The notes beneath the pieces were generated by a model. It was not told the DNA's origin, did not search any database, and saw only the letters and a list, made by a program, of their open reading frames with translations. Source: a virus. From it: 27,445 bases of DNA. The position numbers were made by a program, and so were the translations under genes. The stretch lies in the IMG/VR virus record IMGVR_UViG_3300030333_005267, positions 19,050-46,494 of that record; one strand, given 5' to 3'. Shown one piece after another: positions 4,082-26,836 of this stretch (its first letter is position 1; every line of letters starts with the position of its first letter).

Positions 4082-4933
4082 ATGCAAACTCCGATGGGAA
4101 ACCCACAATGGGGTGGATACTGGGATCCTTACTGGAGCTGGTATCAAAGGCCGTATTACGGCAGTTACTTTCCGATGATGCCTTATGGCCAGCATCATGC
4201 TGCAAACTGGATGTGGCAACAGTTTAATACTGCCCTTCCCAATATGATTGCTAACCTACAAAATAGTTGGCGATACTACGACCGCTGGAATGCTAGTCGT
4301 AAAGACAAGATCTGGATGGACAATTTTCTTGCTCAGCAGCACTTGGACAACATGAAGTTCAAGAATAGATTGTTGGATATCATGGAAGGTATGTATAGCC
4401 CAGGAGGAACTCTTTCCGGCATTTATGGTGACATTGCTTCGGGGATGGGGCAAATCTTTAAGGGAGTTCCTTGGTTCCAGAATGTTGACCAATCTCAAGC
4501 CCAATCGAATATTGATGGTACTGCAGTTGTAGACACTGGAATGTCAGCATTCGGTGGCATTAAAGAACCGCACCTACGTAAGAAGTTTAAGACCGCCAAA
4601 ATGCAGGGCAAGGGCGGGGATGTCTTAAGAGCACTTAAGCAGGGCCTTCAGAGTAAGATTACTCCTCAAGCCAATAAGGTTGCTCGACAGCTTACAGGCG
4701 AAAACCTGCAGGCTAGAGCTGGCGCCAATATAAACGCACTTAATACTTTGCAGAAATCGTACCAGAATGAAGCAAAGAACATCCTTAAGAAAGCTGATAT
4801 TAACCGTAAGATCGTGAAGGGTAAGAATGCTTTAGGCCCAGCACTATCTAATATCCTATTAGGACAAATGGGCGGATTGTTAGGTGGTATGCCTACATTG
4901 CCTACTTGGGGAAGTACAACAGGAAATATCTAA
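4082..4933 (+). CDS. Aromatic-rich virion-associated protein, unknown
   Basis: I do not recognise this 283-residue protein. Its first 50 residues are extraordinarily rich in Trp and Tyr (segments GGYWDPYWSWYQ, RPYYGSYF, NWMWQQF) with Pro, Gly and Met. A helical charged segment follows (about 60-105), then a basic Lys/Arg/Gln-rich stretch (about 155-245). The tail is Gly/Leu-rich and hydrophobic (LLGQMGGLLGG). It begins 2 bases after the collar-type gene and ends 1 base before the next gene, inside the structural block. Small proteins at this position in T7-like phages are internal virion proteins that assist tail-core assembly or membrane passage, and the hydrophobic C-terminus would suit that. 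This is positional inference only. Confidence 0.6.
   Translation: MQTPMGNPQWGGYWDPYWSWYQRPYYGSYFPMMPYGQHHAANWMWQQFNTALPNMIANLQNSWRYYDRWNASRKDKIWMDNFLAQQHLDNMKFKNRLLDIMEGMYSPGGTLSGIYGDIASGMGQIFKGVPWFQNVDQSQAQSNIDGTAVVDTGMSAFGGIKEPHLRKKFKTAKMQGKGGDVLRALKQGLQSKITPQANKVARQLTGENLQARAGANINALNTLQKSYQNEAKNILKKADINRKIVKGKNALGPALSNILLGQMGGLLGGMPTLPTWGSTTGNI
4921..4924 (+). promoter_or_regulatory. Ribosome binding site deciding the start of the low-complexity gene
   Basis: AGGA lies 10 bases before ATG 4935, inside the 3' end of the previous gene. It supports 4935 over the in-frame upstream ATG at 4884. Confidence 0.45.
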
Positions 4934-4934
4934 G

Positions 4935-5936
4935 ATGATGAATGCAGAACAGCTTATTGCTGCTATAGCACAGGGTATGGGGTTTAGTGGCGATGCGTTA
5001 ACCGGCGCTAATGGTTTGCCAATTATAGACCAGACACCCACAGGTATGTTTGGCCCGTCACATCAACACGGCCCTCCTAGCGGGCAAGGTGCAGGTCACC
5101 ATTGGCCTCTTGAAGATAGAGGATTTATGGGAGACCAGCCCGGAGAAGGTGGCCCTGATGGAGGCCCTCAAGGACAGCCACCTGAAGGTGGCCCTGAAAA
5201 CGCTCCTGGCCCTGGCGGTAATAACCCTGGCGGGCCGGCCAACCCCGGCCCTGGCGGGCCTGTCAACCCCGGCCCTGGCGGGCCTGTCAACCCCGGCCCT
5301 GGTGGCCCTCCTGGCGGGCCGGCTGGCCCTGGTGGAGGTAACACCCCTCAAGGACAGCCTCCTGAACATCCTGTACCACCATTACCACCTGGCCCTGGTG
5401 GCCCTGGTGGCCCTGTTAACCCAAACCCTCCGGGGCCAAACTTTCCGCAACCTCCGCAGCCACCTCATCCTCAACCTCAACCTCAACCGCAACCTCAACC
5501 GCAACCGCAACCGCAACCGCAACCTAGCCCGCAACCTCCATATCCTAACCCCAACCCACCAGGGCCGTACCCACAACCCAGTCCACAACCTAGTCCACAA
5601 CCTAGTCCTTCGCCTTGGCCTGAGCCACCAGATACACCAATAGATGAACCACCAGAGTATCCAGATCCGCCATTGCCTCCGAGTCTACCAGAGATGGAAA
5701 TGGACTTGCGGGATCCCCATGGCAGGTTTGTAACTCCTGATATCATTTACGAAGAAGGAGATTCAGAAGGGTGGAATTATGAAGATTCAGTAGAATCGAT
5801 TCCGTTTGGATTTTATGACTCAGGTTTAGGGGATGTAGCTGGGTGGTCAATGCCTACCAATGCAGACCCCCTTGCACCATGGGTTGCAAATCAGGTCGGA
5901 GGCCCAGTTCCCCCATTATTTCAGGCTTTAAGTTAA
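4935..5936 (+). CDS. Pro/Gly/Gln low-complexity virion protein
   Basis: The chosen start is ATG 4935 (333 residues): AGGA lies 10 bases upstream and the preceding gene stops one base before. The in-frame ATG at 4884 would sit inside the previous gene and lacks a better site. Residues 1-40 are an ordinary helical N-terminus (MMNAEQLIAAIAQGMGF). Residues about 76-165 are a Gly-Pro-rich, collagen-like run built on PGGPVNPG units. Residues about 179-196 are an uninterrupted Pro-Gln dipeptide tract, followed by PQPS and PNPN repeats. The last 95 residues are acidic with aromatic residues (DIIYEEGDSEGW). I see no enzyme motif. Such a protein would form an extended, stiff spacer in a virion structure. 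Other frames are open here only because of base composition. Function unknown. Confidence 0.65.
   Translation: MMNAEQLIAAIAQGMGFSGDALTGANGLPIIDQTPTGMFGPSHQHGPPSGQGAGHHWPLEDRGFMGDQPGEGGPDGGPQGQPPEGGPENAPGPGGNNPGGPANPGPGGPVNPGPGGPVNPGPGGPPGGPAGPGGGNTPQGQPPEHPVPPLPPGPGGPGGPVNPNPPGPNFPQPPQPPHPQPQPQPQPQPQPQPQPQPSPQPPYPNPNPPGPYPQPSPQPSPQPSPSPWPEPPDTPIDEPPEYPDPPLPPSLPEMEMDLRDPHGRFVTPDIIYEEGDSEGWNYEDSVESIPFGFYDSGLGDVAGWSMPTNADPLAPWVANQVGGPVPPLFQALS
5227..5298 (+). repeat. 24-base tandem repeat, three copies, in frame
   Basis: Three consecutive 24-base units at 5227, 5251 and 5275 begin CTGGCGGG; the second and third are identical and the first differs at a few bases. They encode an eight-residue Pro/Gly unit (PGGPVNPG), so gain or loss of a unit keeps the frame. 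Confidence 0.85.
5469..5525 (+). repeat. Hexanucleotide (CAACCN) tract coding Pro-Gln dipeptides
   Basis: Alternating CCT/CCG and CAA codons run for about nine Pro-Gln pairs. The unit is six bases, so slippage changes length by two residues without a frameshift. A mixture of CCT and CCG interrupts perfect identity. Confidence 0.85.
5571..5606 (+). repeat. 12-base tandem repeat, three copies
   Basis: CCACAACCYAGT is repeated three times, coding a Pro-Gln-Pro-Ser unit; the last two copies are identical. It lies in the same low-complexity protein. Confidence 0.8.
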
Positions 5937-5974: not shown

Positions 5975-8900
5975 ATGTCCATATTCAAAGCGCCTTTTCC
6001 AGGGTGGTCTGACCAAAGATTAACAGATCTTTTTAATAAGGTCGGCCAAGGAGGTATTCAGCAAGGTTCTGAAGACGATCAGTTTTCGGCTGCAGATTTT
6101 ACTAAAGCGGCACTGACCAAAGACTATCTTCATGGACTACAAACTGAAAAGCAAACCTTCGGTGGAGATCTAGTCGAAGACGAGGACAGCGACCCTACCA
6201 AGATGGGTTTCTCCGTGCGCTCAAACCAAACTGGCGTAGGCCAGGAAGGTTGGCGGGATGCTGTAGATCAGCAGAAAAGCTCTATCAAGGATTTCTACGG
6301 CGGCTTAGGTTCTACCTCGGGTAAGCATGAACTTGGTTTAGGTCAGACTCTTAGTGGGAAGATGGGCTACAGAACCTTCGGTGATTATGTAGACCAAGCT
6401 GCTAAAGCTGTTCAAGAAGGGCATGGGCAGCAGCAAGCTCAGCAAACAGATTGGGAATCTTGGAGGCAAGAGTTATCAGGGCGGGATCCTATACAAGATC
6501 GCATTGAAGGGATTAACAACTTCATAAACTCTGGCCAAACTCCGGACACCTATGATCTTGGCGCGCTTGATATAAACGGAGATGGTTATGTAACTCCTGC
6601 TGATTCGCTTAATTTAATAAACCAATATAACAGCGGACAGCAATATATTGGCGGTGTGTCATCACTTCCTGGAGATATGAAAGTTTCATCGGGGAGAAGT
6701 TTCTATGTTCTTCCTGATGGGACAGTAAGAGTAAATAATCATGGCGGGATAAACGCTCAGGCTGGCGAATATACCCTAACTCTAGAAGAGCTTAGAGTGT
6801 GGGAAGCTGCGTTGCGTGAGCAGTACGGTGATTCAGGCCAATTAGCATCAATACTAGAGGCAGCTGAAAGATATGCGGCTGGTTCGCCAGCTGAAGCTCA
6901 GCAAACCCAAGGTTCATATTTGAATTATCTATGGGGAACGGAGCCTTATTCAGGTCATGACAGCCAATGGGGTACAACACCAGCGCCAGGTGCAAATGTA
7001 AACGATCCCAACTCGGTACTTATTGGCCCATATGAAAATTTTGAGGGAACCTTTCAGGACTTTGTGCAGAACCAATACCCAGGTTTAGCAGCTGCAATGA
7101 TCCCAACGGAGATGGAACAATACTTCGGGGGTAAATACGGGTCTAATGTACGAGAGCTAGAGTTTGGTCAAGGTGCATTAGGGTACCAAGCAGGTACTGA
7201 TCCCAATCTAAACAGAGTTTTGTTTGCTACATTACCTAACGCTCCTGAGTTTGAGAACTTAATGGTGGGGCAAGTAGGTAATCAGATCCGTGAATACGCC
7301 ACTCATATGGCAAATGCCTTCCGTTCTGAGGAAATGTCTGGAATCTTTAATGACCAACGAAAGTTTGGTCTGACCGACGCTAACATCCAAGAACTCCAGA
7401 ACCTAGATCCAACGCAAGCCGGTCTCTCTATGACTCGTCGAGATGCCGATACGTTAATGACGTACATAAAGAGTATTGAATCTATTTACGGACAAGATTA
7501 CTGGGGTAGCAAAGATGCCGGTCAGTTAATGTACGACATGTCGCCACGGCTAACTGCATCATACGCATTAAAGAATCCAGTTCAGTGGAGCTTCTTGCAG
7601 CTAAGAGAAGGCGGCGATCCCAATAACATGGATGATTGGGTTCCTCGCACATTGCAAACCAGCGTTATTAATATTCCTCTTACGGATATGCAGCGATCTA
7701 TTATGGAACGAGTTACTGCTAATCCTCAAGATCTTCAAGTGTTTATTGATTGGTTTAAGGATATATACGGACAGGGAGACCCAACTGTAGGGTCAGCAAT
7801 GCCTGAGCAATTACCTACGTCAAGCAATCCTTACCAAAACTGGTCTGAATGGCAGCATCCAGAACAAGATGCTGGTCTACCAGAAGGTGTTCAGCAAGAT
7901 ATAGTCGGTTACCAAAATCCTCAAGATCAGCAGTATTACCAAGGGCCTAGTTATTATGCCCCAACTAGCCAAGTATACTCAGATGCGGGATGGCAAGCAG
8001 GACTTCCTCAAGACTTCCAACGTCCTGACCCTATGTTCCCAGGCGAAACCGCTTCAGATATATACGGCTTAACGACTCAGTTCAGACCAGGCGGAACACA
8101 AATTGAAGACGTAATAGACCAAGGCCAAACTGACCCTATACAAGACGCAATATCAGGTCAAACTGAAACTGGAGATCAAGTATTCCCAGATGAAGTTGTA
8201 GAGCAGATCGAAAGTGGTCAGGCCGATGTAGACGAAATAGACATCGGAAGTGGCACCACAGTTGACCCAGTCACGGATGCTCTTACTGGCGGCACTAGCG
8301 ACCAAGTTGATTCTGGAACTCAAACCGGAGCCCAAGATCAATCTGGAGTAGTTGACCAGTCACCAGCAGGGCAAGACGAACAAGGTGAACAGGCAGAAGT
8401 TGGAACGCCGGATTCAAATTACAACTCAACGACATTCAAGAAAACTGTTATTACTGGCGGCATAAACCCAGATGGAACAAGAAATAGCGATCCATTTACA
8501 TATGAGCATAAAGACATTAAGGCTTACCAAGTCGGGACAGCAGTTAATGGTACGCCTGTATGGGTAACTGAAGATGGTGTTATATACGGAAGCAATGATG
8601 ATGGAACTTTATCTGTAAGCATTAGCCGAAAGGGTATGGATAAAGCCTTTGATGAGTCAGGGCGATACATTGGCCCTGTAATTGACCCACAAACTAAACG
8701 GCCTTATGGCGAAATCTTGATGAAATCAGATTACGAGATGGGGCTTCAGCCGGGGGATCATGAAAACGATCATATCCCCAGAAGATATGAGCTTCTTGGT
8801 TGGTGGAATGGTATGGAAGTGCGACATGCTTCTGGCAATATTGTTTATTATGATGGTCAAAAATGGAATGGTATAAATCGTCGTGCAATCACTGATCCTG

Positions 8901-10753
8901 GAAAATGGTATATACATGCAGCGGCTATGGGTATTCAGGGATATGCTAACTGGCAGCCTTACGAGTACAGGGCACAGTTTGACTGGCAACCCTTAGACAA
9001 GGTGTATAAACGAACCTCATTACATCCACATGGGCCATCCGGTGAATGGAACTTGGAATTTGTCGGAATGTATCGTGGCGATGAAATACGTCGAGATAAA
9101 AACACAGGGAAGTATTATAAAAATGGCAGCCTATCCGGATGGGGAGAACATTCAATATGGAACGAAATAGACTTTGATAGGCCTGGTAATCACCAGTTAG
9201 GAGCAATTCTAGATGGCCGTGAATGGTTTAATGTTGGTGGGCCTTACAACTTTGGCCCACAGAACAAGTCTGACTCTTGGATGATCTGGCAGCCAGCTTC
9301 AAATCTGCGTCAGAACAAACAAGGAGAAGCATCTACAGCCACAGGCAATAGCATAGATTGGTACTCAGATCACGCTAGACAAAATAATTATTTTGGAAGC
9401 GCTAACCAGGGGGTTTCACAAGGAACATCACAGGCCAGTTCTAATATAATGGGTTTTGCGCCTACTCAAGGATCTTCTGCGGAAAGTCAAATTAGGAGTT
9501 TTGCTGCATCATCTGATCAAACAGGAAATCAATACCGTGCTCCAGATATAGATTACCAAGATCCATGGAGAGATCAGGGCGAAGGCTTAGGCCCAATTAC
9601 TCAGGAGCAGCTGGATTGGTATGAAAGCAACCAAGCAATGCTAGGTGGGCCAGCGCCTCCTGGCGGTCACATAAGTGCTTACGATATTACAGCTGACAAC
9701 TGGAGACATCTTCCAGGCAAAATGAGAGATCTCGCACAGGGTACTATCGAATTAATGATCGACAAGTATAACGAGAACGTCAGGGAGCTTGATAGAATTT
9801 CTTCTGAAAATAATCTGACTTGGGAGCAAGTATATCCTATGCGTGACAGATTATACAAAGAGCTTGTAGATACTTATCGTGGAGGTTTTAGAGCCTGGCA
9901 AAACTACACTGGCGGCAATCAAGGAATGGATACTAAGATTTACGGCAACCCAAATGCTTATGATTTTAGTATTCATGAACCAACCGACAAGATGCCTGAA
10001 GACTGGATGGCTAAAATAATTAAAGGTCAGGCGACAGCTAGTGCTGAATGGATTCAACAGCAAATTAAAGCTGATATATCTGCTGGAGAAGCAATGGCAG
10101 CCTATATCCAGCAGGAAATAAATAATGAAACTAACCCTGAAAAGAGACAGCGTTTGAAAGCGCAGCTGAACCAGGTGAAAGGTACTGGTGCTTGGTACGC
10201 TAAGATACTTAAGAAGCATGGTATTAACGTAGGCAATCTTCATGATAAAGTCTGGAGAGATGCCAAGATGCCTATAGTAAAAGCTAGGGATGCTGCAAGA
10301 ATGTCTGACCAGCAGCTCGGAAAGAAAGCTGTAAGAAACTTATTCCAATACAGGGTTAATGAGTATGGTATAGGAATGGGTTCACACACCGCTTTGAATC
10401 ACCCTCACTTATTGCATGACTGGGATCCAGGCGAGAGTTTCAAGGTTCCAATAGGACTTCAAGTTCAGTCTGCTCTGGGGCTGTACAACGATCAATCACA
10501 AGGCAAGGGAGGCTGGTTAGAAACAGCCTTGAGCGAATTAGGTGTAAATCGAAATAATATAATTATGGTTTCTGGGAAAGTAAAAGAAGGTAGCAGACAA
10601 ATGACTCGAATCTTCTCGATACAAATTGGTTCTCAGGCCCATAACATGCTACGAAATGGTTGGTCAGTACAACAAATTGTAGATATGACTGGAGGCAATC
10701 CTTACACCAAATACAAGGGTTCAGAGGTAAGCAGGAAATATTATGGAGGATAA
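5975..10753 (+). CDS. 1,592-residue virion-type protein with a dockerin-like calcium loop
   Basis: A very long protein in the position of T7-like internal core proteins; I recognise no full-length family. Residues 199-210 form a textbook EF-hand/dockerin loop (DINGDGYVTPAD, Asp/Asn at 1, 3, 5 and Asp at 12), followed by the helix-like SLNLINQYN typical of a dockerin half-repeat. Residues about 690-820 are an acidic Asp/Gln/Thr/Gly-rich linker. Residues about 854-1130 are rich in Trp, Tyr and Gly, and a G-x3-G-x2-[VI]...Y pattern recurs at 854, 942 and 1031. The C-terminal 400 residues are helical and charged (e.g. ENVRELDRISSENNLTWEQV). No lytic transglycosylase motif was found. The start is ATG 5975 with a weak AGG site; the next gene begins 6 bases after the stop. 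The role as an ejected internal protein is inferred from size and position. Confidence 0.65.
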   Translation: MSIFKAPFPGWSDQRLTDLFNKVGQGGIQQGSEDDQFSAADFTKAALTKDYLHGLQTEKQTFGGDLVEDEDSDPTKMGFSVRSNQTGVGQEGWRDAVDQQKSSIKDFYGGLGSTSGKHELGLGQTLSGKMGYRTFGDYVDQAAKAVQEGHGQQQAQQTDWESWRQELSGRDPIQDRIEGINNFINSGQTPDTYDLGALDINGDGYVTPADSLNLINQYNSGQQYIGGVSSLPGDMKVSSGRSFYVLPDGTVRVNNHGGINAQAGEYTLTLEELRVWEAALREQYGDSGQLASILEAAERYAAGSPAEAQQTQGSYLNYLWGTEPYSGHDSQWGTTPAPGANVNDPNSVLIGPYENFEGTFQDFVQNQYPGLAAAMIPTEMEQYFGGKYGSNVRELEFGQGALGYQAGTDPNLNRVLFATLPNAPEFENLMVGQVGNQIREYATHMANAFRSEEMSGIFNDQRKFGLTDANIQELQNLDPTQAGLSMTRRDADTLMTYIKSIESIYGQDYWGSKDAGQLMYDMSPRLTASYALKNPVQWSFLQLREGGDPNNMDDWVPRTLQTSVINIPLTDMQRSIMERVTANPQDLQVFIDWFKDIYGQGDPTVGSAMPEQLPTSSNPYQNWSEWQHPEQDAGLPEGVQQDIVGYQNPQDQQYYQGPSYYAPTSQVYSDAGWQAGLPQDFQRPDPMFPGETASDIYGLTTQFRPGGTQIEDVIDQGQTDPIQDAISGQTETGDQVFPDEVVEQIESGQADVDEIDIGSGTTVDPVTDALTGGTSDQVDSGTQTGAQDQSGVVDQSPAGQDEQGEQAEVGTPDSNYNSTTFKKTVITGGINPDGTRNSDPFTYEHKDIKAYQVGTAVNGTPVWVTEDGVIYGSNDDGTLSVSISRKGMDKAFDESGRYIGPVIDPQTKRPYGEILMKSDYEMGLQPGDHENDHIPRRYELLGWWNGMEVRHASGNIVYYDGQKWNGINRRAITDPGKWYIHAAAMGIQGYANWQPYEYRAQFDWQPLDKVYKRTSLHPHGPSGEWNLEFVGMYRGDEIRRDKNTGKYYKNGSLSGWGEHSIWNEIDFDRPGNHQLGAILDGREWFNVGGPYNFGPQNKSDSWMIWQPASNLRQNKQGEASTATGNSIDWYSDHARQNNYFGSANQGVSQGTSQASSNIMGFAPTQGSSAESQIRSFAASSDQTGNQYRAPDIDYQDPWRDQGEGLGPITQEQLDWYESNQAMLGGPAPPGGHISAYDITADNWRHLPGKMRDLAQGTIELMIDKYNENVRELDRISSENNLTWEQVYPMRDRLYKELVDTYRGGFRAWQNYTGGNQGMDTKIYGNPNAYDFSIHEPTDKMPEDWMAKIIKGQATASAEWIQQQIKADISAGEAMAAYIQQEINNETNPEKRQRLKAQLNQVKGTGAWYAKILKKHGINVGNLHDKVWRDAKMPIVKARDAARMSDQQLGKKAVRNLFQYRVNEYGIGMGSHTALNHPHLLHDWDPGESFKVPIGLQVQSALGLYNDQSQGKGGWLETALSELGVNRNNIIMVSGKVKEGSRQMTRIFSIQIGSQAHNMLRNGWSVQQIVDMTGGNPYTKYKGSEVSRKYYGG
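6569..6604 (+). other. Dockerin/EF-hand-like calcium-binding loop (residues 199-210)
   Basis: The encoded 12-residue loop has Asp1, Asn3, Asp5, Gly6, Thr9 and Asp12 (DINGDGYVTPAD), the ligand pattern of type I dockerin and EF-hand loops, with the typical following Leu/Ile helix. Only one such loop was seen, whereas a full dockerin has two. Confidence 0.7.
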
Positions 10754-10759
10754 TAAATA

Positions 10760-11473
10760 ATGAGTTGGGCACCAATAATCGGGCCGAATCCGAGAATTCC
10801 GCAAACTAATGAAGATCCAAACCTTCCTGGTGGCCCAGGAGGGCCTTCATCTGATCTTCCGGACGTAGAATTCCCTGATCCAGTTGAGGTTGAAACTCGC
10901 GTACCTGAAATGATTACCAGGTTTTCAGGGACGGATGATTTTCTACCTATACAAACTACTTATCAATTACCCCATCGTAATTATTTCGATGAAGGTGACG
11001 ATCAGTTGATTAAGAACTGGGCTGTTGCCGATGCTGTTCAGCAATCTGGCAGCCCGAGTATCAATTTAGCTAATGCAGCTCGTCCAGGCATGAGTGTTGG
11101 AAGTCCACAGTATCAGTATTTGTACGATGCTAACAATGCAGCAAGGACAGCTGCAATGGTTGGAGGACTAGCACAGCAGGAAGTAGCAAACCAAGCAGAA
11201 GCACAGCAATATCGAAATCAAATCGAAGCTGCGAAAGCTGATGAATTTAATAAATTGGCTGCCTGGATGCGTGACAGAATGCAGCTCAATACTGATGTTG
11301 GTTTAGGACTTAAAGAGATTGAAGTTCAAGCGTACTTAGACCAGTTAGAGAATCGGCTTAACTTGCTTGGCATCCAAGGTAATTTCATGGGAACCTTGCT
11401 GCAGCAATTGATGGGCAATGTTGGTGATATTTCTGTTGGCGGTCTAGGTAATATTGGAGGATGGTTTCAGTAA
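10760..11473 (+). CDS. Small helical internal virion protein candidate
   Basis: A 237-residue protein preceded by GGAGGA with 9 bases spacing, and ending in TAATG shared with the giant gene. The first 40 residues are Pro/Asp-rich and probably flexible (PGGPGGPSSDLPD). Residues about 115-210 are predicted long helices rich in Ala, Gln and Asn (AARTAAMVGGLAQQEVANQA, AAKADEFNKLAAWM). The C-terminus is Gly/Leu-rich and hydrophobic (LLQQLMGNVGDISVGGLGNIGG), similar in style to the end of the aromatic-rich protein at 4082-4933. Size, helical character and position before a giant protein recall the small internal core proteins of T7-like phages (gp14 position). No specific motif proves this. Confidence 0.6.
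   Translation: MSWAPIIGPNPRIPQTNEDPNLPGGPGGPSSDLPDVEFPDPVEVETRVPEMITRFSGTDDFLPIQTTYQLPHRNYFDEGDDQLIKNWAVADAVQQSGSPSINLANAARPGMSVGSPQYQYLYDANNAARTAAMVGGLAQQEVANQAEAQQYRNQIEAAKADEFNKLAAWMRDRMQLNTDVGLGLKEIEVQAYLDQLENRLNLLGIQGNFMGTLLQQLMGNVGDISVGGLGNIGGWFQ
11456..11460 (+). promoter_or_regulatory. Ribosome binding site deciding the start of the giant gene
   Basis: GGAGG lies 12 bases before ATG 11473 but directly abuts the in-frame ATG at 11461, where it could not act. With the TAATG stop-start overlap this favours 11473. Confidence 0.6.
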
Positions 11474-14400
11474 TGGCTAAATCGAGACCACTTGGGGGAA
11501 ACTGGAGAAAACGGAGAAGGCCAATGACTGGCCCTCCTGGGTATGCTAGTTCTGTAGACTATACAACAACTCCAACTCCAACTCCAACGCCAACTCCAAC
11601 TGGAGTTCTACCATATCCACAGATATTGAGTCCTCAACAAGTTATTGAGTTATCTACTAGATATCGCATGACACCTGCTGATATAGCTGAAGACTATGTA
11701 AGGGATAGGGTTCAAGGCAGGACTTCTGAGGTTACAGATTCCCCAGAAACTGATCGAACATATGAAGTCTTAAAGGCACAGAACAGACTTCTGAAAATCA
11801 TGCAGATAGCTGTGTATGAAGAGTTCATTCGTGTTCAAGATGCCATTGCTGAGGCCAAAGAACGGGCTTTTCAACAAACAAAAGGCATGAAGAAAGGGAA
11901 GGATGAAAGACATAAAATATTCTTAAACCTGATGGCCGATTATGACGAAGGCTATTACGATACTCGGCGTGTCAATCGCTCGGTGAATGCTGCGCTAAGT
12001 AAAGTCAAAGAGAATGCTGGGATAGTTTCCTTGGAGCGATCCGATATAGGTCGCTTAGATAATTATATAAATAGACTACAAGCAATACTTGATGGTGGTG
12101 GTATTGGCAACAGGAAAGATGCCAGATCGCGAGATGTTAAAGTAGGTTTTCCTAAGTTAGTAGTAACTGACATGGACGGCCAGGCAGTTGACTTCAGGAA
12201 TTCCGCTGATGAAATCATCATGGCTCTCTGGGATCCAAGCAAAGCGCAAGAGCTTTCAGACCTGGGATGGGAATGGAAAAGGAGAGGTCAACAACAGCAA
12301 AACAATAAGTTAACTAAAGATGGTCAGCGACTTATTAATATCGGCGAATCCCTCAAGTCTCTCAGTGGCTTGTCAGAACTTGATCCCAATTCTCGCGCCC
12401 AGACCATGGGATGGGAAACCCTAGGAGAAGGAGACAATCCTTATATAACAAGAGAAGCCCTTGGGGATCAGCACTTCTATCTAAAGCCTAATGCAATTGA
12501 AACCAAAACGAATGAATTCATAGGTATATCCAAAGAAGGCTTTGGCTCAGATCCAACGCAAGAAATAAAAGGTCAGTTTGCAAGTGATGAGAATATCGAG
12601 AGTGGTGATTTTGAAGTAGGAAGACGAATTGATGAGTTAGTTGCAAGAGAACCTACACTAGACGAGGTTGCACGATGGGTACAGGAGAAACCTCCAGAGG
12701 GCTACGAGAACTGGCCTGATGAAAAGCAAAAAGCATGGCAAAATTCTGAAGACAGAAAAAGGGGTATCCATCCAAATCTAGTGACGCAGGAGCATATTGA
12801 TGCGTACAAGAAAGCAACCCGTCCGGGAATTGTTAGCCCTCAAGATCTTATTGGCACAAGGCTAGCAAGATTTGAAAGCGAAGAATTTCCTCTCAAGAGG
12901 GGCATTCACGCTCTGATTTCCTCGGTAGCAACGCACGCAATAGTAGGAGATGACACTGCATTACCTAAAGGTATTGAGCAACCTTACATAGATCCTGACA
13001 CTGGCCAACAAAAGATAAATAAAGTTGACAGTATTGCCGAAATCAATAAAGCCCAGTTTATTGATATAGCCCCTCCAGTCCGAATTAGCCCTTCTAGGTT
13101 AGCCGAGTCACTGCAAGTTCTTAACTCCGGTTTCGTAGACGCATTAAGAAGGCAGGAAACCAGAGAGAGGGTAGAGGCCAAGCAATTTGGAGACAGGTTT
13201 GTAAAGGTTAAGCGGACTACCCATAAACCAACTTACGATCCACTGGTAGTTAATAAAGTTCTCTTTGACGCTAGCCCAGAAGACGGAAAGAAATGGCTTG
13301 ATGCACTACGAGATTTAATAGGCGCACATTCAGAGGATCTGAGTGAAGCGTATAAAAAATTGGGTTGGAAAAAAGATCGAGATGGGAACAGGGCACTTTT
13401 CCATGTCATCCGAACTGACATATACGAACAAAAGCCGAAGAAAGTCCAGAGAAAAGACGAGACTCCAGCCACCCTTGCAGCAAGAAAGCGTGCTGAAGAA
13501 GAAAGAGCTGCGCAGGAAGCGGAAAGCAGAAGGCGATCTGATCTAGCTAGGCGAACTTTTTCTGGCCCAGGTGGGATCATACCTCCACCTAGCATGTTAG
13601 GCATTTCACAAGCAGAAGCTGATAGGTCTATTGACTATTTAGCTCAACCTCCTAGCAATGTCGAATCTCGTCCAGTCCGAGATGATCTTCCAGAAGAAAG
13701 TCGTCCCGAGCCTGCGGCTGTAAGTGTTGAAACGGGTGCAGTAATTGGCCCTGGAGAAGCTGAAAGACAGCAGGCTAGAAGAGATCTGCAGCTAGAACAG
13801 TATGACATTGATCGTATTGCAACTTCTGGATGGGTTGATGCACTACAAAGACCTAACGTCCGGCAACAGATGACTGATTTATCTGTGCAGTCTGGCTTTG
13901 GTTCTGATCTGAATACCTTAAGCGTAGACCAAAGAAAGCAATTGATCCGAAGGTTCGACGTTGGCTATGAAGGTCTTCAGTCTGTTATAAGCAGCGGCAA
14001 TCCTGAGCTACTTAAGCCAGCTCACTCACGAGGGTTTACCCAGCCCGGCAAAGACACTGGAGGTTTTGTACATCCAGACAATGCTAAAGGTATTGTTGCA
14101 GATTCAATGACTATATTTGGTGGAAGCTCTCTTTCTCCAGAACAAATACGAAGATTCAAAGAGGAAATACCTCAAGGAGACCGTAAAAGACTGGGGATAA
14201 ACTCTAGCCCAGATTCTATTCAGGCGTACTTCAATGCTGTAAATGCTGATGCAACATTAATTTTGGGAACAAAGACTACACTCTATGGTGATGATGTAAC
14301 AACCTTTACTGATGAAGCTAAAGTTGCAAATGAATTTGGTGGTAATGTCATTCATAATCCATCACCTCAAGAGTTTGCTGATTGGCTGAAGCAGGGTCAG

Positions 14401-17400
14401 GTAAGGGTTCTTAATGTTGTTGGTTCAACACAAAGTCCATACGCTGGGCCAAATGAACTTCAACGTCAGCTACAGACGTTACTTGCGGAAGCGGACAGGA
14501 ATAGGATTCTTAATCCAGCATCAGGAGATACCTTAGCTGACCATGCTCAGTTCTGGATTGACCTTGGGCCTAATTCTGGAGTTGAGCAGCTTCCTGTTCA
14601 GTACACAGGGCCAACTAGACCTATCAAAGCTATGGGTAAGGATGGTGGTTCTAATCATGTTCTGTCAAACCTATGGCAGATTGACATGGATTATGATCCG
14701 CTTGCGGGTGGAGGCTTGAGAGTAGAAGTTCCTACTCCAAGGGGAATGCAGATGACTACATTCCCGTCTGTCGAACACGCATATCAAGCCTTGAAGGGCG
14801 GAGGTACTGTTACCCTTGAGCAGATAGCTCCCTTCCAGACTTTGCAACAAGTTCCAAAGAACTTTGAAAGCTGGTCTCCTGAAAAGCAACGGTCTTGGCA
14901 GGGTCAGCAGGCTAGGAGAATGGGCGGTAAGGATGTTGATAAAACCACAAACTTACAACTCATGGAGAGTTTGCTTCGTGCTAGGTTTGAGCAGGATCCT
15001 GAGTTCAGGGATGCGTTGCTTGCAACTGATGGTTCACGTTTAACTCATCCAGTTAAAGATAAATTCTGGGCAGAAAACTACCCAGCTCTTTTAATGGGAA
15101 TACGAGATGGTGAACTAGGTGGTGGAAGAAGGACGCTCGATAGAGACCTTAGCCATTTCCAAGCGAGAACCATGCGGTCAATTCAGGCGGAAGGCCTTGA
15201 TCCAAAGACAGCAAGCAATATAAACAGGAGACTCGATAAGGGTGAGACTGTAACTTACGGAAGAGAAGTTGGTCAGCCTGGTGAGATACTTAGTATTGAA
15301 GGGCTTAAAACTCCCGTCAAGATTATTGGCTCAAAAGACGGACGAACCAGAATCAAGGCAGCTACTCCAGCAGAGATAAGGGAATATGGCAATGCAGTAA
15401 ATACACTGTTTCCTGATGCTTATCCTGAGATGCTCACGCAGCAGCAACGACAAGACAGGAGAGCCCAAGCCTTCATTGGGGATGCCGAAGTCTTAGAAGA
15501 TGTGCGAATCACTCCTTCACCAGATAACATTCGTGCCCCGTTCGCCTTGCCGTTCAGTCCTGCCATAAGTCCAAGGATGTTTGAAGATCGTCCACTCGGA
15601 AGTGATCGCCCCGTAGAAACAGGAAGTGTACGAGATGATATTCCTGTAGATACTCAGGGTAGACGGGGGCCAGGCTATGTAGAAGTAGAAACCGTAGGTG
15701 GAGACGTACGAGGGCTAGGGCAGCCATTGCCAAGCTATCAAGAAGGCGTACAGATTAGTGGTCTTACTGGGCCACCTCCAAGAAACTTGCCACCTGAACT
15801 CTATGACTTACACAGTCAATACGTACAAACTCATGGCAGAATTGTAGCAGACCAAGCATTAAGTTATGCCTACGACCAAAGAGGCTTTGGCAATTATAAT
15901 TCAATCCAAGCATTCAAAGACTTTATTAATTCTAGAGCTGGAAAGAGATCGGCGATCCCAGTAGATAAGCCACGGGCACAACAGCCAGCCCGACCACAAA
16001 TCAGAAAGATAATAAGTGGTATGCAGATAGGGGGAGATCAGCTCTCCTTACAAGCAGCGCAGCAATTAGGTATTGAAACTGGAGGATATGGAGCAGGTGC
16101 GTCTGGAGCAGTAACCAAGGATGAACGCGGAAGGAATATTGAAGATACCGCAAGCAGAGATAAGTTTGGTATTGTCCCTGTTACGCCGGAATTGCAACAG
16201 CAATACAACCAACGCTATGGACAGCCTGGAGGAGAGAGGGGTGTTTGGCTTTATAGAACCTTCGCAAATGTTGCAGACTCAGATGCTACGGTATTCTTTA
16301 TAGGGCAAGATACTTCAGCAGGACTTGCTGCAACTAAAAGGTTTGCAAGAGATTTAGGGAAACCTTTCTTGGTTGTTGATATTAGAAAACCGGGAGACCT
16401 CAATAAGCTAGCTGAGTTTGCTGCTCAGCATAATGTTCAAGTCTTAAATGCTGCAGGAAATAGAGGCATTAAAGACTCTGCCTTTATTAATAAAGCAATA
16501 ACTCAAGCGGTTAGGCCTTCGATTGCTCCTCCTCCTCAAACCCCAGCAGACAAGCCTGTACAGACTGTTCCTGAACCTACAACTCAAAGCCCTCCAGTGG
16601 GTGCTAAGCTCCTAGGCCCTCAAGTCGGGGACAATCTTCCGGTAGATGTTGATGCGGGTAATGAACAGTTAGCTACAATCTACGCAGAGGAAGAAGCTGA
16701 TAGGCCATATGACCCAACACCTCAAAATCTTAAAGCTCCTCCAGGAAACAACCCATCAACTCCACCTGGATCCCAGAAATCAGATCCTACACAGGATGTT
16801 GTTCCTCAGCCAGTTCAGGGTGTTCAGCCTGGCTTATTGAAGGATTGGGACTACGATGCTATGCCAGCAGATGATCCGAAGGTTGCGCCTTCTACTCTAG
16901 AACGTGCTGATAGAGTTCGTGATAGGGACATGAAGCAAGCAGGCTTAGATCCTACTAAGACAGTAGATCAAAACGCCTGGCAAAAAGTAAAGGAAACTGG
17001 AACTTACAAGTTTGTTAATAGTGCAGGTAAAGTGTTTACGTTCCCTGCCAAAGCTAGTTGGTGGGCATCTAAGAAAACAATTACTGGAGCTGTAGCACTG
17101 TCGAAGAACAACCCAAGTATTGCCGGTGTTGGAATACCTGACTTGGTTGAATTTGCTCCTATTGGTATACAGAAATACGAAGATGCTGTCCGCCCTAAGC
17201 ATAGAGGTCGAGATCTATACTTGCATCAGCTTCCTGAACATCAAAGAAGTTTTGAAAATATATCAGCCTACTTGTTTAACAACAATTTTATTGGACAGGA
17301 AGCGAAGTCGTACCTTGATGAACTTTCCAATAATATTAAATCTGATGTCGCTCGTGGTTTAGTTGCATCACCTAAAGAACATCCTGACTTTGAAGAACTT

Positions 17401-19008
17401 CGCTCTGCCTTGAACGAGTATGCTATTGAGCCAACCGCACATAAAGGCCGAATGTTTACTATTAACGAGCAGGTTGATGAAGATGATCTAAATCAGTTCG
17501 AGCTTAATCTAGCTAACCTGCAGGGTAGAAGCCTTGGAGGACAGACTAACAATGTCCTAAGTGCTAATGCCCATCGAGGAGGAAATGTTTATGACATATG
17601 GGGCTGGTCAGATTTAACACATCAAAGACAATCATGGGATGACTTTGCTGATGGCTTGATGTCTTCTGCTGAATTGATGGCTCAGGCTCGGGGGCTGCGA
17701 GTGGCACGAGGGTTTGTCGGTAAAGGTGCTGCAAACTTAGCCGCACGGGCGGGTGCTCTTAAATGGGCTGGAAGAATCGGAGGCAGGGCTATTGGATGGC
17801 CTATGGTTGCTGCTGAAGCCGCTATCTATGCTGAAGGTGCAGCTGATGATTTGGCTAGCTACTTCCATCCAGACTATGGAATTCCTGGGCTTCGAGAAGC
17901 AACGGGTGTAGATCCAATTACAGTGTCTCATATGTACACTACCTTCCAGCAGAGGCCAGACGCCAAAGAAGAGTATTTGCAATTTGCAAGAGAGAACCCA
18001 ATAACGGATGAGAACTACAGTGTTCATCACAACATGCTTCTCAATGGTATACCATATAGCAACTTCCACGTTTGGGAATACCGAGATGAGGTTGATGGAG
18101 TAAAGCTCCCGCAAGACCAGATCCATGTAGTAAACACATGGACTCAAGAGACAGTACCTATCGCCGAAGTAGAGAGAAGAATTCCTAACTATGGAAGCAA
18201 GTGGAAAGCGGAAGTTTCTAGGGATTCAATTATCCAAGGGCTTAAGTTAGCAGAGAGCGTTAACAAGGAACGTGCAGAACTAGGCTTACGTCCTGATGGA
18301 AGAGTAATTATATCAGACGATATGATTGCAGAGCAGCGACAGATCTTGTCTGAAATGAGAGATGGCTTTACCCAAGAAGAACTCCAAGGATTTGATTCAT
18401 TAAACCCAATACCTAATGTCGCTGGGTTCGGCCCGATTAGAGAGAGCCTTGATACGGCTAGGGGAATGCGTAATGAGTTTGAATTGGATACTGGGATTGA
18501 TTGGCTCAATGAAGGTATCAGCTGGGGACTAGAGAAGTTTGGACAAGCCGAGGATATTCCTAGAAAGTATCTAGCTAACGAAGAATTAGCTAAGAGGATG
18601 AATAACCAAATTACCCTAGGTAAAGGCCATGTGGATGGCAAGGGAAATAAAATTCCATCTGCTTCCTGGGAAGAATCTTCTGGGAGGAATCTTGCAACAG
18701 ATCTATGGGGCTCAGCAAAAGGTACGGCTCAGTTATTTGGGGCTCCAGTTGAGTTTGATAAAGATAAATATAGAATTATCCATAGGGATATAGCGAGGGA
18801 TCCTAAGTCAGCTTACGACATTCAGCAGATGAGAAATAAATTTAATTACTCACCGCAAGTCCAGGCATTAGACAAGTGGCAGGAGCCTCAGTTAATGGCA
18901 CCGCCATCCCCAGACGAACAAATGAAAAAGAAAAATAGAAGGAAGAATACACTAAGCAATCCGTTTGATACAGGGTTACTAGGCCCGCAAGACTGGATGA
19001 ATCAGTAA
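11473..19008 (+). CDS. Giant (2,511-residue) polyvalent virion protein with SLOG-NADAR-SLOG module
   Basis: Residues count from ATG 11473. In order: basic N-terminus (NWRKRRRP) and a Thr-Pro tract; helical unknown regions; a charged coiled segment near 670-695; degenerate SLOG copy at about 855-990 (NADATLILG 924-932, VRVLNVVG 977-984); NADAR/YbiA-type domain at about 1055-1215 (LSN 1064-1066, FPSVEHAYQALK 1097-1108, FW...LLMGIR 1198-1211); intact cpYpsA-type SLOG at about 1510-1682 (ISG-Q-GGD 1514-1522, LGIETGG, ADSDATVFF 1601-1609, AGLAATKRFARDLGKP, VLNAAG 1657-1662). The C-terminal 800 residues include a Gly/Ala-rich hydrophobic segment near 2083-2130 that might insert in membrane. Known for these families: SLOG domains bind nucleotides and NAD-derived signals; NADAR domains act on N-glycosidic ADP-ribose links. 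Inferred: a virion protein ejected with DNA that brings enzymes. It could also be a purely intracellular protein. Confidence 0.75.
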   Translation: MAKSRPLGGNWRKRRRPMTGPPGYASSVDYTTTPTPTPTPTPTGVLPYPQILSPQQVIELSTRYRMTPADIAEDYVRDRVQGRTSEVTDSPETDRTYEVLKAQNRLLKIMQIAVYEEFIRVQDAIAEAKERAFQQTKGMKKGKDERHKIFLNLMADYDEGYYDTRRVNRSVNAALSKVKENAGIVSLERSDIGRLDNYINRLQAILDGGGIGNRKDARSRDVKVGFPKLVVTDMDGQAVDFRNSADEIIMALWDPSKAQELSDLGWEWKRRGQQQQNNKLTKDGQRLINIGESLKSLSGLSELDPNSRAQTMGWETLGEGDNPYITREALGDQHFYLKPNAIETKTNEFIGISKEGFGSDPTQEIKGQFASDENIESGDFEVGRRIDELVAREPTLDEVARWVQEKPPEGYENWPDEKQKAWQNSEDRKRGIHPNLVTQEHIDAYKKATRPGIVSPQDLIGTRLARFESEEFPLKRGIHALISSVATHAIVGDDTALPKGIEQPYIDPDTGQQKINKVDSIAEINKAQFIDIAPPVRISPSRLAESLQVLNSGFVDALRRQETRERVEAKQFGDRFVKVKRTTHKPTYDPLVVNKVLFDASPEDGKKWLDALRDLIGAHSEDLSEAYKKLGWKKDRDGNRALFHVIRTDIYEQKPKKVQRKDETPATLAARKRAEEERAAQEAESRRRSDLARRTFSGPGGIIPPPSMLGISQAEADRSIDYLAQPPSNVESRPVRDDLPEESRPEPAAVSVETGAVIGPGEAERQQARRDLQLEQYDIDRIATSGWVDALQRPNVRQQMTDLSVQSGFGSDLNTLSVDQRKQLIRRFDVGYEGLQSVISSGNPELLKPAHSRGFTQPGKDTGGFVHPDNAKGIVADSMTIFGGSSLSPEQIRRFKEEIPQGDRKRLGINSSPDSIQAYFNAVNADATLILGTKTTLYGDDVTTFTDEAKVANEFGGNVIHNPSPQEFADWLKQGQVRVLNVVGSTQSPYAGPNELQRQLQTLLAEADRNRILNPASGDTLADHAQFWIDLGPNSGVEQLPVQYTGPTRPIKAMGKDGGSNHVLSNLWQIDMDYDPLAGGGLRVEVPTPRGMQMTTFPSVEHAYQALKGGGTVTLEQIAPFQTLQQVPKNFESWSPEKQRSWQGQQARRMGGKDVDKTTNLQLMESLLRARFEQDPEFRDALLATDGSRLTHPVKDKFWAENYPALLMGIRDGELGGGRRTLDRDLSHFQARTMRSIQAEGLDPKTASNINRRLDKGETVTYGREVGQPGEILSIEGLKTPVKIIGSKDGRTRIKAATPAEIREYGNAVNTLFPDAYPEMLTQQQRQDRRAQAFIGDAEVLEDVRITPSPDNIRAPFALPFSPAISPRMFEDRPLGSDRPVETGSVRDDIPVDTQGRRGPGYVEVETVGGDVRGLGQPLPSYQEGVQISGLTGPPPRNLPPELYDLHSQYVQTHGRIVADQALSYAYDQRGFGNYNSIQAFKDFINSRAGKRSAIPVDKPRAQQPARPQIRKIISGMQIGGDQLSLQAAQQLGIETGGYGAGASGAVTKDERGRNIEDTASRDKFGIVPVTPELQQQYNQRYGQPGGERGVWLYRTFANVADSDATVFFIGQDTSAGLAATKRFARDLGKPFLVVDIRKPGDLNKLAEFAAQHNVQVLNAAGNRGIKDSAFINKAITQAVRPSIAPPPQTPADKPVQTVPEPTTQSPPVGAKLLGPQVGDNLPVDVDAGNEQLATIYAEEEADRPYDPTPQNLKAPPGNNPSTPPGSQKSDPTQDVVPQPVQGVQPGLLKDWDYDAMPADDPKVAPSTLERADRVRDRDMKQAGLDPTKTVDQNAWQKVKETGTYKFVNSAGKVFTFPAKASWWASKKTITGAVALSKNNPSIAGVGIPDLVEFAPIGIQKYEDAVRPKHRGRDLYLHQLPEHQRSFENISAYLFNNNFIGQEAKSYLDELSNNIKSDVARGLVASPKEHPDFEELRSALNEYAIEPTAHKGRMFTINEQVDEDDLNQFELNLANLQGRSLGGQTNNVLSANAHRGGNVYDIWGWSDLTHQRQSWDDFADGLMSSAELMAQARGLRVARGFVGKGAANLAARAGALKWAGRIGGRAIGWPMVAAEAAIYAEGAADDLASYFHPDYGIPGLREATGVDPITVSHMYTTFQQRPDAKEEYLQFARENPITDENYSVHHNMLLNGIPYSNFHVWEYRDEVDGVKLPQDQIHVVNTWTQETVPIAEVERRIPNYGSKWKAEVSRDSIIQGLKLAESVNKERAELGLRPDGRVIISDDMIAEQRQILSEMRDGFTQEELQGFDSLNPIPNVAGFGPIRESLDTARGMRNEFELDTGIDWLNEGISWGLEKFGQAEDIPRKYLANEELAKRMNNQITLGKGHVDGKGNKIPSASWEESSGRNLATDLWGSAKGTAQLFGAPVEFDKDKYRIIHRDIARDPKSAYDIQQMRNKFNYSPQVQALDKWQEPQLMAPPSPDEQMKKKNRRKNTLSNPFDTGLLGPQDWMNQ
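11568..11602 (+). repeat. Hexanucleotide (CCAACT) tract coding Thr-Pro repeats
   Basis: About five CCAACT-type units near the 5' end of the giant gene code a Thr-Pro tract at residues 32-43. The six-base unit permits in-frame length change. Confidence 0.75.
14035..14442 (+). other. Degenerate SLOG-like copy (residues about 855-990 of the giant protein)
   Basis: The second half matches the SLOG copy downstream: NADATLILG parallels DSDATVFFIG, a helix with AKVANEFGG parallels AATKRFARDLG, and VRVLNVVG parallels VQVLNAAG. The N-terminal Gly-rich nucleotide loop is not clearly kept; only a loose DTGGFVHP resembles the TGG segment. It is probably an old duplication that lost the binding loop. Confidence 0.6.
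14635..15117 (+). other. NADAR/YbiA-type domain (residues about 1055-1215 of the giant protein)
   Basis: Family hallmarks appear in order and at usual spacing: LSN near the start, a T/S-VEHAYQA helix (Glu1101, His1102, Tyr1104, Gln1105), a Leu-rich helix ending RARFEQDPEFRDALLATDG, and a terminal DKFW...ALLMGIR. NADAR proteins cleave N-glycosidic bonds of ADP-ribosylated or ribosylated compounds. The canonical Gly-Asn-Leu-Gly stretch before the last helix is reduced to ENYPA. Confidence 0.8.
16000..16518 (+). other. cpYpsA-type SLOG domain (residues about 1510-1682 of the giant protein)
   Basis: The order IRKIISGMQIGGDQ, LGIETGG, RTFANVADSDATVFF, SAGLAATKRFARDLGKPFLVVD and VLNAAGNRG follows the 'putative molybdenum carrier' SLOG family closely. 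The SGG of the family is SGM here and the usual Gln-Thr-Gly is Gln-Ile-Gly, but Asp1522 is kept. The name 'molybdenum carrier' is historical; the fold is a nucleotide-binding Rossmann-like one. Confidence 0.85.
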
Positions 19009-26075: not shown

Positions 26076-26447
26076 TTATACCTGTTCAATCTCTGTTATT
26101 TCTACCTCAAGACAGCCAGGTTTCATTACGTCGCACCGAATCACACGAAGATCGTCTATCTGGTTATCATCTCCATAAATACCAGCGTATCCGAGTGCAT
26201 CCAGGGCCGCTTTATTTATATTATCTATGTCTCTTCTACGTTTATCAGGCATCGTTGCCTTAATTACAACCTTTAATCTGCCTAGCAAGGGGCGTGGATC
26301 CTCTACATCTTCAGGCTCGAATGCGTTTGCGACTGCTACATTCACTGCATCCCTGTATTCCCTCCCTTTTTTTGATAGGATTACCCTGCCCTTTACTGCC
26401 CTCCAGTATGTATTAACTGACGGCGGATATGGAATAACTATTTCCAT
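26076..26447 (-). CDS. rusA: RusA-family Holliday junction resolvase
   Basis: A 123-residue protein, close to the roughly 120 of RusA. The start at 26447 is chosen over the upstream ATG at 26549 because AAGGAAGG lies 9 bases before it, and residue 1 then leads into the family N-terminus (MEIVIPYPPSVNTYWR). Asp73, Asp75 (RDIDN) and Asp94 (YGDDNQIDD) match the three catalytic aspartates of E. coli RusA in spacing. RusA resolves four-way DNA junctions made during recombination and replication of phage DNA. It overlaps the HNH-type gene by 10 bases, so the two are translated together. Confident. Confidence 0.9.
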   Translation of the reverse strand: MEIVIPYPPSVNTYWRAVKGRVILSKKGREYRDAVNVAVANAFEPEDVEDPRPLLGRLKVVIKATMPDKRRRDIDNINKAALDALGYAGIYGDDNQIDDLRVIRCDVMKPGCLEVEITEIEQV

Positions 26448-26836
26448 TTTGGATGGCCTTCCTTTTTCAGTTCCTTGAAAGCGTCTAGAATCTCTTTCAA
26501 TTCTACTCGGCGAGGTGCTCTTAACTCTGGGTCTCTGAGCTTTAGCCATCCCTCTATCTCAAAGTTGTGTGTGTCATATATTATTTTATATGCCAGTTGC
26601 CTGGGATGTGGCATTGCTGCGAGGTCATCCATGTGGCATTTCTTGCATGCACAAAAATAATTATTTAAGTTCGCCCAGGCGTGATTCGGTGCTTGGCTTT
26701 TGCGTTCCATCTCATGGGTCTCTAGCGGAAAACCTGCATGATGCGTTGCTCCACACACCCAACAGAACTTTTGTTTCTTAGCCCATTCTTTCCTGGCTGC
26801 CATCAATTTATTTATTTCTCGTGTCGTCTTCTTCAT
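26438..26836 (-). CDS. HNH-type zinc-finger protein / endonuclease candidate
   Basis: A 132-residue protein with AGGAAG 8 bases before its ATG. Residues Cys25-x2-Cys28 and Cys64-x2-Cys67-His68 form two metal-binding knuckles. Between them lies His41-Glu42 and a conserved Asn (58 or 59), the arrangement of an HNH fold carried by a zinc-binding scaffold. HNH proteins of this size cut or nick DNA; the catalytic second His is not placed with certainty. It overlaps the 56-residue zinc-ribbon gene by 4 bases (ATGA) upstream and rusA by 10 bases downstream, so it belongs to one small DNA-processing operon. A structural zinc-finger role without cutting is possible. Confidence 0.6.
   Translation of the reverse strand: MKKTTREINKLMAARKEWAKKQKFCWVCGATHHAGFPLETHEMERKSQAPNHAWANLNNYFCACKKCHMDDLAAMPHPRQLAYKIIYDTHNFEIEGWLKLRDPELRAPRRVELKEILDAFKELKKEGHPKWK
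26457..26464 (-). promoter_or_regulatory. Ribosome binding site deciding the start of rusA
   Basis: AAGGAAGG on the minus strand ends 9 bases before ATG 26447. This supports the 123-residue form over the 157-residue reading. Confidence 0.6.

Follow-up and report, generated by a model that had tools for sequence, protein, structure and literature searches.

Dockerins hold bacterial extracellular complexes together. Dockerin type I (PF00404), as in clostridial CelL (6kge) and C. thermocellum (2ccl), occurs on secreted enzymes and is built of two tandem calcium-loop/helix repeats, with Asp/Asn-type ligands at loop positions 1, 3, 5 and 9 and Asp at position 12. The module described here shares with this family the D-x-N-x-D-G-x-V-T-x-x-D loop, both predicted helices and the overall fit of a modest-confidence structural model. 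It differs in carrying a single calcium loop, in lying inside a phage protein, and in that the viral clade yielded no cohesin partner. Dockerins of Planctomycetota (our loci L109-L117) also resemble the module in having Pro-Ala at loop positions 10-11 and, in the next helix, Ile-Asn, and three of the seven loci hit by the loop pattern likewise have no canonical first loop. They differ in residing within large cellular proteins, most of which have two loops, and no link between them and this phage was shown. As for phage proteins, EF-hand-like calcium loops are described for endolysins (e.g. PMC7098653); these are lysis enzymes, whereas the module is carried by a large late-gene protein in which we detected no enzyme domain.

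A dockerin-type calcium loop in a late-gene protein

We analyzed a window of 27,445 nucleotides from an uncultured phage, which corresponds to bases 19050-46494 of a 46,494-base virus record. The ORF at 5975-10753, on the forward strand like all other features of this gene, encodes a protein of 1592 aa, within which an earlier note had recognized a dockerin/EF-hand ligand pattern at residues 199-210. We found the loop exactly there: DINGDGYVTPAD, at 6569-6604, matches the sequence pattern at all five ligand positions (1, 3, 5, 9 and 12, corresponding to D199, N201, D203, T207 and D210). Position 6 is Gly, positions 10-11 are a conserved Pro-Ala, and position 12 is Asp rather than Glu, in the style of dockerins. 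By pattern search, this is the sole loop of dockerin type among the 32 ORFs (14,411 aa) from the 46.5-kb record. When the proteins of the 32 ORFs were shuffled, the strict loop pattern appeared a mean of 0.02 times per shuffle, and a longer dockerin pattern, drawn up after viewing the sequence, in none of 2,000 shuffles.

The search for dockerin family members returned Pfam Dockerin_1 on residues 180-217. Its hmmscan score of 19.1 bits (E 0.0015) does not reach the cut-off of 22.9, and the 23.7 bits obtained in a search restricted to the 46,494-base record itself (E 2.8e-6) exceed it. The dockerin of CelL was a sequence match of the module in the PDB (E 5e-4). As delimited by the alignment of model residues 7-66 with 2ccl_B, the dockerin-like module spans residues 163-222 (6461-6640). 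Helices are predicted by the model on both sides of the loop, at residues 172-186 (6488-6532) and 208-219 (6596-6631), and the calcium loop expected ahead of the former is lost. The earlier note had spoken of a single loop. This is correct as to number, because only one loop is found by pattern and a test for an internal repeat or a hidden first repeat upstream of it was non-significant. The loop is not isolated, however, since the Pfam match covers profile positions 18-55 and, with the flanking helices, suggests a lost first loop. Both dockerin helices seem to be present, the first calcium loop seems to have been lost, and the neighborhood looks like a dockerin reduced in this way rather than a loop on its own.

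To obtain a structural view, residues 157-234 were modeled with AF2 from seven module sequences, which returned a model of modest confidence (mean pLDDT 64, about 76-82 at the loop). Compared with solved dockerins over residues 163-222, the model aligned to 17 entries at Z 3.3-4.8, as opposed to 2.2 or less for unrelated chains, in VIA-align, which merely re-aligns the candidates proposed by Foldseek. Since a Z below 8 may reflect an arrangement that is common, and dockerin structures of the PDB may have entered the training of AF2, this fit supports a dockerin fold but does not prove it. In Foldseek itself, dockerins were top-ranked with weak, non-significant scores (E 0.7-1.6). A fold search of BFVD placed a tail protein of Siphoviridae sp. 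ctQtc11 first and a protein of Myoviridae sp. ctCL221 named 'Dockerin type 1' third, neither with a significant E and both compared by fold rather than by reading their sequences. Modeling preferred dockerins, with modest confidence, and did not predict an unrelated fold. A longer model of 612 residues was unusable (pLDDT 40) and had no matches in a fold search.

Conservation of the module and its genomic context

A search with the whole 1592-aa protein returned no relative from viral contigs or from 50,697 phage records, and relatives were therefore reached via the terminase, which matched 63 viral contigs. Relatives of the 1592-aa protein were present in 5 of the 37 records searched and, by blastp, in G004. 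The members of this clade come from environmental metagenomes, which are probably marine. The homologues in G001 and G006 carry one module each, with loops ALDINGDGFITPAD and DDINGDGQLTPAD, respectively. In the three-sequence alignment (G000, G001 and G006), where the sequences are 42-47% identical to the first of the three, 10 of the 12 loop residues are invariant, T207 included, and so are the four residues named in the earlier note (Asp199, Asn201, Asp203 and Asp210). The loop forms a conserved island, with 2 of 51 invariant columns before it and none of 94 in the variable stretch after it (residues 217-310, 6623-6904), a pattern drawn from the two alignable relatives that have the module in the same gene. 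Conservation is at ordinary levels in the N-terminal region (residues 1-147, 5975-6415, with 40 of 147 columns invariant) and in a conserved clade domain (residues 311-605, 6905-7789) that overlaps a segment matched also in relatives with no dockerin. Scanning with this alignment retrieved no relatives beyond G001 and G006. In G002 and G004, a Gln/Gly-rich linker of low complexity takes the place of the module. The loop is thus kept where it is present and dispensable in the clade. Together with the Pfam match, the similarity to the CelL dockerin and the fit of the model, the conservation of the four named residues upholds the earlier description of the segment as dockerin-like.

Beyond the dockerin, no significant PHROG or Pfam match was obtained for the 1592-aa protein. 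The gene upstream encodes a 910-aa protein that matches a virion structural protein (phrog_3287, E 3e-8), and a 237-aa and then a 2515-aa ORF follow downstream, an order common to the clade relatives. By their position and appearance, ORFs further upstream seem to encode capsid, terminase and portal; for the terminase, a tblastn match with an annotated one lends support. Given this shared gene order, the 1592-aa protein is likely a virion or ejection-complex protein. The Pro-rich gene at 4884-5936, upstream, was considered as a partner of the module, as a gene of its position and ending is found in the dockerin-bearing records and is absent from G002 and G004; it was rejected because G031 has a similar ending and no dockerin.

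Two further genes of the window deserve mention. In the 2515-aa ORF (11461-19008), residues 1517-1674 match a cpYpsA/SLOG domain (PF12694, E 4.7e-20) and residues 1086-1204 match NADAR more weakly (PF08719, 26.6 bits, short of the cut-off of 35.1); both are NAD/ADP-ribose-related domains within a probable virion protein. On the reverse strand, 26076-26549 encodes a RusA-like Holliday junction resolvase (phrog_34, E 5e-44).

Possible role of the module and competing explanations

On balance, we consider it probable that the module, dockerin-like and folded by calcium, serves as a spacer or docking element in the variable linker of a probable virion protein. In such a scheme, the module covers about residues 163-222, keeps one calcium loop intact and is set in the variable linker that separates two conserved regions. 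In calcium-rich surroundings, as may be expected for the probably marine sources of the relatives, the predicted binding of Ca2+ by the loop would fold the two helices against each other, and the folded module may form a compact spacer or a docking surface that holds a neighboring virion protein or another copy of itself. The host cytoplasm is low in calcium, and there the module would be loose. We infer calcium binding, docking and a switch on cell entry from the loop, combined with what is generally known about calcium levels. A one-loop form of dockerin, conserved in the linker of a phage protein and recurring in other viral contigs, would mean that calcium-folded elements for docking or spacing are in use in phage particles.

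A rival account, serious but unlikely in our judgment, is that a plain EF-hand-like DxDxDG loop arose independently in a flexible linker, where it would provide local stabilization, with neither docking nor descent from dockerins. The single loop and its non-significant symmetry with the upstream segment agree with this account, as do the calcium loops in other genes of the relatives, such as the post-portal proteins of L016 and G007. However, Pfam favors Dockerin_1 and its match reaches upstream to residue 180, position 12 is Asp and follows a conserved Pro-Ala, and the model fits whole dockerins. It is extremely unlikely that the loop owes its resemblance to chance, within a linker that is acidic and rich in glycine. 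In 14,411 aa, 0.2 matches to a loose EF-hand pattern are expected (P 0.18, non-significant by itself), so that this pattern alone carries little weight, and G002 and G004 have only low-complexity sequence at the site; yet the loop is the one conserved island of a variable region in three sequences, which argues against chance.

We also regard as very unlikely that the module is a true docking domain captured from a bacterium, by which the particle, or a protein that it ejects, attaches to a partner on the host surface or in the phage. Its nearest cellular motifs are consistent with such a capture: the pattern of loop and following helix recurs in seven GTDB contigs, where the motifs are dockerins, and six of the seven contigs are titled Planctomycetota or Planctomycetaceae. 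Moreover, the three Planctomycetota genomes that we checked have 7-54 Dockerin_1 matches each. The cohesin partner that the earlier note had in mind finds no support, however, since PF00963 has no match in the 13 clade records (this record and 12 relatives, as partial records), and any docking partner of the module would not be a recognizable cohesin. The terminase was unmatched in GTDB contigs and in 294 Planctomycetota genomes, which leaves a planctomycete host unsupported, although this search lacked a positive control and its empty answer by itself shows nothing. The motif does not have the length that a tree or an inference of transfer would need, and the gene piece taken from a host that the earlier note proposed is a candidate origin.

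Similar modules in other viral genes

Among IMG/VR contigs, four match the strict pattern with Pro-Ala, including three from this clade, and a looser pattern matched 28 contigs. G007 and G008 each have two loops in another protein, about 890-1010 aa long, which blastp did not relate to the 1592-aa protein; the two-loop protein of L094 is identical to that of G008. Among the matches to the looser pattern, the protein of L137 has a collagen-like tail-fibre segment, and L128 scores 40.8 bits with Dockerin_1, above the Pfam cut-off. A second loop within 60 aa is absent from 22 of the 28 viral modules, compared with 3 of 12 planctomycete loci, a contrast that is indicative only since both sets were chosen by loop pattern. 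Against phage records, the module had nothing better than E 5-8, and the other viral modules were likewise unmatched. A dockerin-like product is reported for gene 40 of Vibrio phage VvAW1 (PMC3558961), in which the pattern search found no such loop. It is conceivable, but distinctly doubtful, that single-loop dockerin-like modules recur in phage particles as exchangeable calcium switches, which would fold in water rich in calcium, be loose in the host cytoplasm and have been inserted in the linkers of unrelated virion proteins.

A few other features were seen in these contigs. The 497-aa ORF of L128 (3-1493) has two near-identical tandem helix-loop-helix modules (GFTS.DILNASVGN...FLEYD[VI]NGDG). 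EF-hand-like calcium loops occur in proteins downstream of the portal gene in L016 (at 9374 and 10007) and L085 (2661-4721), and also in the post-portal protein of G007, with weak EF-hand_1 scores in L016 and G007. Finally, a 418-aa ORF of L002 (5244-6500) looks by eye like a membrane dipeptidase (M19).
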